NCBI GenBank assembly: GCA_020692205.1
Contig: JAIMKV010000027.1
Location: forward strand, 1-52,555
Source: Myxosarcina sp. GA_180221_E-2-1-MAG-40_15
GTDB taxonomy: Bacteria; Cyanobacteriota; Cyanobacteriia; Cyanobacteriales; Xenococcaceae
Direction of reading: 5' to 3'
Length of the DNA: 52,555 nt
Positions 17,463-20,133 of the stretch are shown here, in pieces. The notes below the pieces were generated by a model. It saw only the letters and a list, made by a program, of their open reading frames with translations. It did no database searches and was not told where the DNA came from. Within the stretch, counting starts at the first letter, position 1; each line of letters starts with the position of its first letter. A program made the translations under genes and the position numbers.

Positions 17463-19061
17463 TTAGCTGAAAGTAACAGGAATATTAGTCTGATCTAGAA
17501 TTTGTTGAGAGAGGAGGCTGAGAGAGCCGCCGTCGCTCCAAGGCTTAGAATTGTTTTTAGCCAAAGTAATAGCTGTGACTTTGTATTTTTCAGCAATGCG
17601 CCCTATTTCCTCAGCTGTTTTTTCCGTAGCGATTACCAGTTGATAAGGGACATCTGCCAATAATTTAGCCGTAAGTAAGTTTAGTTTAACTGTATCAGTC
17701 TGGTTAGAGTTATCGGTAAGATGAAGAATAACTGCCGATCCGTTGGTTCTGCGGCTAAGATCGGCGACTTGGGTTAAGACTTTGATCGCACTGGCTAAGC
17801 TTTCAACCACACCTAAGATAATTGTCGGGGTAACTAGATTAGTTTTAGTTGGATCTACCTCGTCTTTAGTAAGTAGTTTGGGGGCAAAAGTTGGTATTGC
17901 CCAAGCGCCTAAAGGAGCAGTAATTAGGATCGATAAAGCGGCGATCGCTAAAATAATTTCTCCTCCTGGCAGATTTAAACTCAGCGGAATTGCCCCAATA
18001 GCAGCCTGTACCGTAGCTTTAGCTGAATTTCCAGGCAAGAGAAATAACTTCTCCCGCCAAGTCCAGTTACTACCTAATGTAGCTAGATACCAGCCGATTG
18101 TACGACCAAAAATCAAGCCAAGGATGAGCAAGATAATTCCTGGCAACAATACATTTGATAAAACCTGTAGCTGAATTGTTGCTCCCATTAAGACAAAGAG
18201 AAAAATCTCTGCCACAATCCACAGATGATTAAATTCCTGACGTAAGCGACGTGCCAGGGAAGGACTAAGTTCAATCAGAAAAAATCCCATCGCCATTACG
18301 GCTAAGTATCCAGAGAAGTAAGGGAAACCAGAAGCAAGTACTACTAAAAGCAATGCTATGGTGGCAGCAATCAGAGTATCTTGAACGCTATTTTGCGTCC
18401 ACTTTTGCTTGATGGTGCAAAAAACAATTAATTTTGCTGCTAGATAACCAAATATTACCCCGAGAATAATTTGGGCGGCTATCTGAACGGGTAACAACCA
18501 CAGGGCATTACTGGTAATATTTCCTTGAGCTAAAAAATTTAACAGCAAGCTAAACAACAACAAGATTAAAACATCAGACAAAGCACTCCCCGTCAAAATG
18601 GCATCGGCGATCCCTTTAGATACTCCCCAACCCAGGTTTTTAAGCTGCAACATTCCTGGGACAATTACCGCAGGAGATTCTGCACCAATGACGCAGCCTA
18701 ATAACAAACCTGTTGCCCAGTCAAACTCAAATAGCCAAATTGAAATTAGAGAAATGGCGATCGCTTCGGTCAAAGCAGGTAGAAAACCCAAACGCAAAGC
18801 AACACTACCCTGTTGAGCTAACTTATCGCGATCTAATCCTAACCCCGCGCGCATCAAAATTACCATTACGGCAATCATTCTCAGATCATCTGCCAGAGCT
18901 AAAACCTGCTGAGTAATTAGATTACTTATCTGCGATCCTAATAAGATGCCAACGAGCATCATCCCCAGTAAAGGAGGAGCTTTTAGTTTACGGGCAAATT
19001 GACCCCCCAGAAATCCTAGTAACAAAATCAAAACCAGACTAAACAATAAATTGTCAGGCAT
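17463..19061 (-). CDS. Cation:proton antiporter (CPA family) with C-terminal Usp-like domain
   Basis: A 532-aa protein with about 12 membrane helices, opening with a signature GFLGGQFARKLKAPPLLGMMLVG. It carries a conserved core motif CVIGAESPAVIVPG, where the acidic residue is expected to bind the cation. After residue ~410 a soluble tail resembles a universal-stress-protein fold (SAVILHLTDN, KYKVTAITLAKN). The likely role is Na+ or K+/H+ exchange at the plasma or thylakoid membrane. The start overlaps the stop of the upstream eamA gene by 8 bp, suggesting an operon, so the insertion in eamA could also affect expression of this gene. Confidence 0.88.
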   Translation of the reverse strand: MPDNLLFSLVLILLLGFLGGQFARKLKAPPLLGMMLVGILLGSQISNLITQQVLALADDLRMIAVMVILMRAGLGLDRDKLAQQGSVALRLGFLPALTEAIAISLISIWLFEFDWATGLLLGCVIGAESPAVIVPGMLQLKNLGWGVSKGIADAILTGSALSDVLILLLFSLLLNFLAQGNITSNALWLLPVQIAAQIILGVIFGYLAAKLIVFCTIKQKWTQNSVQDTLIAATIALLLVVLASGFPYFSGYLAVMAMGFFLIELSPSLARRLRQEFNHLWIVAEIFLFVLMGATIQLQVLSNVLLPGIILLILGLIFGRTIGWYLATLGSNWTWREKLFLLPGNSAKATVQAAIGAIPLSLNLPGGEIILAIAALSILITAPLGAWAIPTFAPKLLTKDEVDPTKTNLVTPTIILGVVESLASAIKVLTQVADLSRRTNGSAVILHLTDNSNQTDTVKLNLLTAKLLADVPYQLVIATEKTAEEIGRIAEKYKVTAITLAKNNSKPWSDGGSLSLLSQQILDQTNIPVTFS

Positions 19062-20133
19062 GTTGTCGATTAACTAACGTTACGCCTAATATTACCAAAC
19101 CTCCACCGCCTAAGGTGATCGCGCTAAGAGATTCTTTTAAAAAGATCGTGCCAAAAATAATGGCAAACATCGGGACTAAGTTAATGAAAATGGCTGCTTT
19201 GGCTGCGCCAATTGCTTGAATACCTTCGTAATACCAGTTAAAAGCGACTACTGTTGCTAATATTCCTAAATATGCCAAGCCTAATCCCGTCAATAAATTG
19301 ATTTTTGGGAAATGATTGTTTTGTTCCCAAATAGCAAAGGGCAATAACAATACACTGCCAATCCAAATAGCATAGGTAGTAGTGGCTAAAGCAGACATTT
19401 CTTGCATCGCTAATTTACCGACTAAAGAATAAATCACCCAGCTGGCAACACAACCTAGAATTGATAATTCACCCCTACCAATTCCTTGCGAAACTAAAGT
19501 GCTGATATTTCCTTCGGTAAGGATTAATATTGCACCAAGTAAGGAAATTGCAACACCAACTAATTTAAGATAGGTTAGCTTTTCCTGAAAAAAAATTCTC
19601 GAAGCAATAGTAATACAGACTGGATTTAGAGCAATAATTAGTCCCGCACGACTAGCAGAGATATCTTTTAAGCCGAGAAAGAAAAATAAATTATATGCCA
19701 AGATTCCACTCAAACCTAAACTAACAACTAATAAGGCTTGTCGATAACTAATTTTGGGTAATTTATCTTTTTTCAATGGTTCGGACAGTTTTATTAACGA
19801 ACTTGTAAGCCTTACAGGACAATAGTTATCAAAATTTGGCTTTTTTCTCAAGTTAGCTATAAAGCTAACTTTGATTAAATTAAGTTTGCTGATGATAAAT
19901 GCGAATTCTCTAGGCTTTCAGTCTTTGAAATTATTCAAATTTTGTCCGAACCATTGTTTTTTGTAGCTAATCAAAAACCAGAGAAAGATAGAGGCGATCG
20001 CGAAACGACCAAATCCAGCAGCAAACGGACTCATGCTTTGAGCAATTATCCTGCCAATTACAAAAGTTCCACCCCAAATTGCCATTGTCAGAATCAACTT
20101 AAAATAAATAATTCTTGATTTCTGCATTGGCAT
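19054..20133 (-). pseudogene. EamA/DMT-family transporter gene interrupted by a MITE-like element
   Basis: Two halves of one 10-helix drug/metabolite transporter are separated by 183 bp. The first 59 codons (20133-19957, helices 1-2) end at LWFLISYKK. The rest (19773-19054) continues KKDKLPKISYRQAL and runs to NRQHA. Removing the insert and one copy of the six-T duplication joins them in frame as SYKKDKLPKIS, giving 296 aa, the family's normal length. As it stands the first part hits a stop at 19918. A shorter 265-aa frame starting inside the element (ATG at 19851) would lack helices 1-2. The gene overlaps the antiporter start downstream. Confidence 0.9.
19774..19956. mobile_element. MITE-like insertion, 183 bp, with 14-bp perfect TIRs
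   Basis: CAATGGTTCGGACA (19774-19787) is repeated exactly inverted as TGTCCGAACCATTG (19943-19956). Both ends are flanked by TTTTTT (19768-19773 and 19957-19962), a direct target-site duplication; because the target is a homopolymer, the true length could be shorter. The inside has no transposase frame. It has a central palindrome AGTTAGCT-ATAA-AGCTAACT (19851-19870). Excision restores the eamA frame. The mobilising transposase family is not recognised from the TIR. Confidence 0.85.

Follow-up and report, generated by a model that had tools for sequence, protein, structure and literature searches.

A 183-bp MITE within an EamA transporter gene of Myxosarcina sp. and the IS2621-like elements that may move it

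An EamA transporter gene in two parts

The window, by which we mean the whole stretch of 52,555 nucleotides of Myxosarcina sp. DNA that was analysed, carries on its reverse strand an EamA transporter gene in two parts, with a short MITE lying between them. The neighbours of this gene are a Na+/H+ exchanger-type gene and a NUDIX gene, and a heme oxygenase gene is found farther out. The features of the locus are the following:

19054..19773, minus strand: EamA transporter gene, 3' part (239 codons); Pfam EamA at 149.6 bits; continuous in the homologues L105-L108
19768..19773, no strand: target-site duplication copy 1, TTTTTT
19774..19956, no strand: MITE of 183 bp, with 13 copies in its own genome that are at most one base apart
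19774..19787, plus strand: terminal inverted repeat (TIR) CAATGGTTCGGACA, a perfect 14-bp inverted repeat
19849..19881 (element positions 76-108), no strand: central core, hairpin AAGTTAGCT-ATAA-AGCTAACTT, distinguished by its conservation
19943..19956, minus strand: TIR of the opposite end, a perfect 14-bp inverted repeat
19957..19962, no strand: target-site duplication copy 2, TTTTTT
19957..20133, minus strand: EamA transporter gene, 5' part (59 codons); Pfam EamA at 29.0 bits, for a cut-off of 28.2

The first-pass annotation of this DNA had described a 183-bp element that bears perfect TIRs of 14 bp and is bordered on either side by TTTTTT, and all of this is confirmed at the coordinates listed above. 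The inner palindrome that it reported is likewise present (AAGTTAGCT/AGCTAACTT, at 19850-19871), and we read the six frames of the 183 bp by eye and, in agreement with it, saw no long open frame resembling a transposase. A perfect 14-bp repeat is, however, no proof when it stands alone, and we rejected it as such since shuffled sequence reaches the same count: the window holds one such repeat with a spacer of 50-400 bases, while 30 shuffles in two-base blocks give a mean of 0.27 and a maximum of 2. What places the element beyond chance is that the genome holds it in 13 nearly identical copies, every one of which has a duplication of its own.

The restoration of the reading frame upon excision had also been put forward. 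Indeed, removing the element together with six bases yields an open frame of 296 aa, and removing it with 5 or 7 bases breaks the frame; but since 183 + 6 = 189 = 3 x 63, this is weak evidence, and we rejected it as proof of the insertion because a length of 189 bp is a multiple of three. As the sequence stands, the reading frame of the gene stops in the element, leaving a stub of 71 aa (59 codons from the gene and 12 from the element). Another frame, 265 aa long and starting with TTG, extends from the element into the 3' part. The homologues are more telling. A search of 40 genomes including the own one, at E <= 1e-40 and with one genome per species compared, gave six matches, one of them being the gene of the window and another (in G017) covering residues 163-293 only. 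The EamA homologues of the other four genomes (71, 65, 64 and 49% identity) are uninterrupted: each is one open frame of 304-344 codons, and they align without gap through the junction SYKK|DKLPK, which gives, between species, the kind of empty site that the annotation had called for. The insertion has presumably cost the transporter its function.

One further mark of the window is the octamer GCGATCGC, of which there are 61 copies in 1-52555 for 0.28 expected from composition, and which we take to be the HIP1 mark of cyanobacteria.

Copies of the element and a partner IS

The own genome (4.87 Mb, 131 contigs) gives 14 matches to the element, one of which is a 24-base end and 13 of which are full-length and found on 13 contigs, so that there are 12 copies besides that of the window. 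Eleven of the 13 are identical and two carry one change, and every one of the 13 is bordered by a direct target duplication, of 5 bp in six cases, 6 bp in six and 8 bp in one. Short, devoid of a transposase gene, ending in TIRs, duplicating its target at independent sites and dispersed in many copies, the element has the features of a MITE. Together, the near-identity of the copies and their separate target duplications mean a recent burst of movement. The 50-base flanks of the 13 copies have an A+T content of 63-89%, that of the window being 61%. Among the remaining 12 copies, six overlap a frame that is 70 codons or longer (L040, L043, L044, L046, L048 and L049), a count which includes frames merely running in from the element, five have no overlapping frame, and one (L047) lies within an IS. 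As judged by eye, the frame overlapped by L044 (G000:C92:21095-21277) is rich in RTX-like GGxGxD repeats, and L046 stands where an acetyltransferase-like frame begins. At L047:19-292 (G000:C13), the MITE lies inside the 3' end of the IS2621-like IS, where it is bordered by a duplication of 8 bp, ATCTTGAG; its site falls within the very stretch of the IS that resembles the MITE core.

The TIRs are found well beyond these copies. With at most one mismatch, the TIR 14-mer occurs at 56 sites of the genome (27 + 29), against 2 + 4 for the reversed control pattern. MITE ends account for 26 of these sites, and 24 of the other 30 are no more than 90 bases away from the end of a contig. These terminal ends come in two forms. 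Fourteen are of the CAATGG form, comprising 10 right-type ends (CAATGGTTCGGACAAAATTAAGCAGC), 3 left-type ends and 1 that is too short to type. In the other 10 the TIR reads CAATAGTTCGGACA (CAATAG form; contigs C22, C32, C48, C49, C73, C75, C101, C112, C118 and C120 of G000), and the 7 of them that read past the TIR are all left-type, so it seems that the partner IS has unequal ends or consists of two subfamilies. Reading inward from the left end one enters the frame VIKVKVLKDYRTMDSVK, and from the right end one enters the C-terminus TLIKSHPNYSNLYDYGTIAA. The right end of the window MITE equals that of the partner IS over 19 bases inward, CAATGGTTCGGACAAAATT.

The flanks of these ends allow one to pair them. 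Through duplications of 5-6 bp, 5 of the 13 left ends can be joined to a right end (C11 fitting two), the mean being 0.46 and the highest value 4 when the flanks are shuffled 2000 times; the remaining 8 have no partner by duplication among the 12 right-end candidates, which count the untyped C24 and the nested C13. The full-length IS is not assembled in the own genome, in which the protein search returned three fragments only (C39, C57 and C13). Judging from the IS ends at contig termini and their pairing by duplications, full-length copies are most likely present in the genome and break its assembly. Three other traces of the IS can be mentioned. A truncated left fragment of 165 bp at L033:1350-1514 (G000:C57) holds the start of the transposase frame over 38 codons. 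A diverged left end at L130:1780-1849 (G000:C102:45779-45848), 86% identical over about 70 bases, is probably an older copy. Finally, an exact lone TIR 14-mer at L029:1501-1514 (G000:C49:40892-40905), which lies immediately downstream of a frame that by eye resembles P-II (GlnB) and has no IS body seen alongside, is possibly a remnant end.

The first-pass annotation had raised the search for a full-length IS with these ends; the own assembly offers only ends and fragments, but a complete one is found in the relative G018 (L083 1453-2774), with a length of 1322 bp, TIRs of 14 bp and a 5-bp duplication, CTTCA. Its transposase (P0001) passes the Pfam cut-offs of both DDE_5 (51.8 bits) and DDE_Tnp_1 (42.9 bits, cut-off 23). 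In an alignment of four transposase sequences, D103, D197, E322, Y315, R318 and K329 are invariant, with the spacing Y-(2)-R-(3)-E-(6)-K. Such a spacing, together with the DDE residues, is the signature of the IS4 superfamily, to which the partner IS can thus be assigned from its DDE triad and YREK motif. The best NCBIfam model is IS701_3, at 90.5 bits for the G018 transposase; membership of the IS701 family is not supported, as the cut-off of 170 bits is not reached, and the transposase of IS2621 itself scores 97 bits with this model. Relatives of the IS are known from Leptolyngbya (1298 bp, 6-bp duplication), Persicobacter (1308 bp, 7-bp duplication) and Deinococcus radiodurans MP1 (L111; 1322 bp, perfect 19-bp TIR, 7-bp duplication), and another one in D. 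wulumuqiensis (L113) has its ends present with an adjoining repeat of 1 bp only. With its length of about 1.3 kb, its CAAT-ends, a duplication in the range of 5-7 bp and its similar transposase, the partner IS can be called IS2621-like. The TIR, for which the annotation recognised no family, can now be placed, as it corresponds to the ends of IS2621-like ISs. Relatives of the transposase were found in 59 plasmid records, all below 60% identity; a search of the PDB gave no match at E <= 1, and PADLOC detected nothing.

Distribution of the family and its conserved centre

A search with the element gave a match in 11 of 60 genomes, counting its own; within the same family it matched 7 of 26 further genomes, at 73-89% identity over 33-194 bases. 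Of 386 genomes sampled evenly from the phylum at least 10, own included, gave a match, a lower bound as two candidates per genome were scored; five of these matches belong to family f2 and cover the first 47 bases only, and four involve short inner stretches. Related genomes hold 7 sister elements, of which 3 are bordered by duplications of 5-6 bp; the other 4 (G012, G023b, G023c and G011) have only 0-1 bp and are therefore old, truncated or rearranged. The f2 loci, which represent another cyanobacterial family, number 11, with the left end in 9 and the right end also in 6. Five of the six complete f2 elements measure 172-176 bp and one 128 bp, with ends CAATACT.CGGACAG and duplications of 5-7 bp. 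The first ~42 bases of this MITE group (L065, L069, L072, L074, L077 and L123) are similar to those of the window element.

The exact TIR-pair pattern, searched in genome contigs, led much farther, to 6 loci: 4 in one Thiomargarita MAG, which are a single genome and not independent (L095, L097 and L099 are one sequence), 1 in Ca. Parabeggiatoa and 1 in a Pyrinomonadaceae MAG. Duplications of 6-7 bp border 4 of these 6 loci, and L096 and L100 have no clear one. The class to which this Thiomargarita belongs was covered with 369 genomes, of which the MAG itself was the only one to match; viral contigs gave 0 loci for the pattern, and plasmids no MITE match at E 0.01. A Thiomargarita locus (L142:1387-2561, G428) also holds a match to the IS2621-like transposase, at 48% identity and with one stop inside, next to a right end that agrees with the MITE of this genome in 19 bases; a left end of the IS was not found at this locus. 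We found no published account of this MITE family in the open-licence literature searched, and the ten-base core of the TIR, on either strand, retrieved titles unrelated to MITEs among the matches listed.

The ends are not the best-conserved part of these elements. In an alignment of six cyanobacterial MITEs, two of which come from one genome, the best-conserved window of 22 columns starts at position 76, with a mean pair identity of 0.89, the corresponding values being 0.73 and 0.82 for the TIRs, 0.84 for the nine right subterminal bases and 0.63 for the right arm. The least expected result is that the MITEs of Thiomargarita, Ca. Parabeggiatoa and Pyrinomonadaceae combine the same ends with this core at an equal offset. 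Trimmed by 22 bases on either side, the window element still matches the distant MITEs: the score was equalled in 0 (L096), 0 (L100), 1 (L095) and 4 (L098) of 1000 dinucleotide shuffles, and the offsets agree within one base (89-110, 76-105, 89-112 and 77-111 of the window element). Covariation lends no support beyond sequence conservation: in the six MITEs the folding term is -19.18 and the covariation term +0.67, with changes on both sides in 5 of 28 pairs. The window element folds with z = -6.12 as DNA and -7.07 as RNA, and the whole elements of L095 and L100 with -5.78 and -6.16, a strength much of which is supplied by the stem of the TIRs. No Rfam family exceeds its cut-off for the element (the best gives 18.4 bits for a cut-off of 62), its 2 promoter-like sites match the mean of 2.0 in shuffles, and the single terminator-like site falls outside the 183 bp.

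The core resembles the 3' end of the IS transposase gene on the same strand, at 76 bases from the right end in the MITE and 67 in the IS. For the MITEs of the window, G023a and G018, the score was reached in 9, 0 and 0 of 500 shuffles against the right end of the G018 IS, and in 1, 0 and 1 of 500 against that of the own genome; these figures belong to a test of 6 MITEs by 5 ends that was made after the finding, and the three matching MITEs are related and not independent. For the 24 remaining pairs of MITE and IS end, the score was attained by between 17 and 433 shuffles out of 500. Against whole loci, 14 (L083), 15 (L110), 100 (L111), 3 (L142) and 0 (L143) of 100 shuffles scored as well, the match lying outside the IS in L142 (27), inside it near the right end in L083 (24), and near the end CAATACTGCGGACA in L143 (20). 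A view that the core is absent from the IS was dropped after the right-end test. From its resemblance to the 3' end of the helper, the core, and with it the right half of the MITE, is probably descended from the IS; the remainder of the MITE arms has no clear origin in it. The core of the Thiomargarita MITE does not resemble its own IS (432 of 500 shuffles reach the score). Since it does resemble that of the cyanobacterial MITEs, these few sequences point to a transfer of MITEs between lineages rather than to a repeated origin.

We claim that this centre is shared and conserved, and propose a function for it with due reserve. The core, which probably goes back to the 3' end of such an IS2621-like element, could have become a hairpin and been kept under selection as a cis-acting site, in a MITE lineage that crosses phyla. 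It would act as a hairpin, or as a binding site of the transposase or of a host factor, and so make the MITEs good substrates; it is kept at the same offset in Cyanobacteria, in Gammaproteobacteria (Thiomargarita and Parabeggiatoa) and in an acidobacterial MAG. We regard this as a tentative and rather unlikely reading, since a stretch inherited from the IS need not serve any function. Moreover, a test with 7-base strings found the core absent from the six complete f2 elements, and as these are evidently mobile, this argues against its being generally needed. In the window's own family, the coreless elements G012 and G023c have no duplication, and the right end of G023c is degraded.

Mobilisation in trans and comparison with known systems

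The annotation held the locus to be a non-autonomous transposon insertion and not two genes, and the copies, their duplications and the gapless homologues support it; neither of the two outcomes that it had named as refuting was observed. What is new here is the likely helper, an IS with the same ends, which we name IS2621-like. We propose that the transposase of a co-resident 1.3-kb IS2621-like IS of the IS4 superfamily would recognise the shared ends (14 bp, and 19 bp at the right), and would move the MITE in trans while duplicating 5-8 bp of the target. The window copy would have landed in a T run within the EamA gene, leaving the stub, then a stop, and the 3' remainder. We consider it very probable that the MITE is moved in this manner and that the window copy broke the gene. 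Against this count the unassembled full-length partner, the 8 unpaired left ends, the arms of the MITE that have no clear source in the IS, and the 4 sister elements with duplications of 0-1 bp. The MITE itself may have originated from such an IS.

Other readings have to be weighed against this one. Another transposase that recognises similar ends could be responsible, the IS2621-like element being merely a relative; we hold this improbable, even though the full-length partner is unassembled in the own genome, the search returned no transposase match from the Parabeggiatoa genome, and the main match of the Pyrinomonadaceae genome (44%, with a stop inside) is near a different end, CAATACTGCGGACA. 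The IS ends of the own genome have in common with the MITE the exact 14-bp TIR, the 19 right-end bases and a duplication length of 5-6 bp, and the transposase gene of Thiomargarita adjoins a right end that is also that of the local MITE. The resemblance of the MITE core to the right end of the IS makes a foreign transposase less likely again.

That the element would be an ERIC- or REP-like repeat, domesticated for a regulatory or structural role and retained for its function, is very unlikely: its strong folding and conserved centre would suit such a role, but this folding follows from inverted ends alone, neither the Rfam search nor the promoter-like sites give any sign of it, and the copies, which hardly differ, sit at unrelated sites and bear fresh duplications, which means recent movement. 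We give hardly any credence to the notion that the locus holds two distinct genes and a repeat between them, or an in-frame insert that is still translated. It would account for a length, duplication included, that is a multiple of three and for the TTG-started frame that enters the 3' part, but the EamA frame meets a stop in the element and the homologues are single open frames. Under the preferred reading, mobilisation in trans by an IS2621-like IS, a MITE family is tied by matching ends and duplications to a named type of helper, which makes trans-mobilisation directly testable. If the shared centre were functional, some MITEs would carry an internal selected site, and this would help explain how short elements multiply with a borrowed transposase.

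Several known systems can be compared with this one. IS2621 of D. radiodurans is described, in the passage of PMC11219805 that concerns it, as having 1,322 bp and perfect 19-bp repeats, with a copy at DR_B0059; from its length, TIR and replicon, L111 is presumably this copy. IS2621 is like the G018 IS in its 1322 bp, its ends (CAATGGTTCG...) and its transposase, which is 37% identical and has the same catalytic residues. It differs from the MITE in being autonomous and in its TIR (CAATGGTTCGTGCAGTTTT), perfect over 19 bp instead of 14 bp here. In Ca. Thiomargarita nelsonii, the relevant passage of PMC4853749 describes a MITE in hupL with 19-bp inverted repeats and a 10-bp direct repeat, the coordinates of which span 205 bp; there its authors report no parental IS family in ISfinder and discuss a PD-(D/E)XK origin. 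Compared by description only, it is again a Thiomargarita MITE that breaks a gene, and the Thiomargarita MITEs found here have ends of ~20 bp. Nezha is, by the title cited in PMC10969869, an active MITE in cyanobacteria. A further parallel is the Microcystis MITE in sbp, presented in the relevant part of PMC11448079 as a 187-nt element with imperfect 9-nt ends (GGCTCTTCG), 8-nt duplications and a helper of the ISL3 family. The MITE of the window differs from it by its perfect 14-bp ends and its likely IS2621-like helper, but both are, as far as that account goes, cyanobacterial elements of near-equal length which broke a transporter-related gene and whose helper was matched by its ends.
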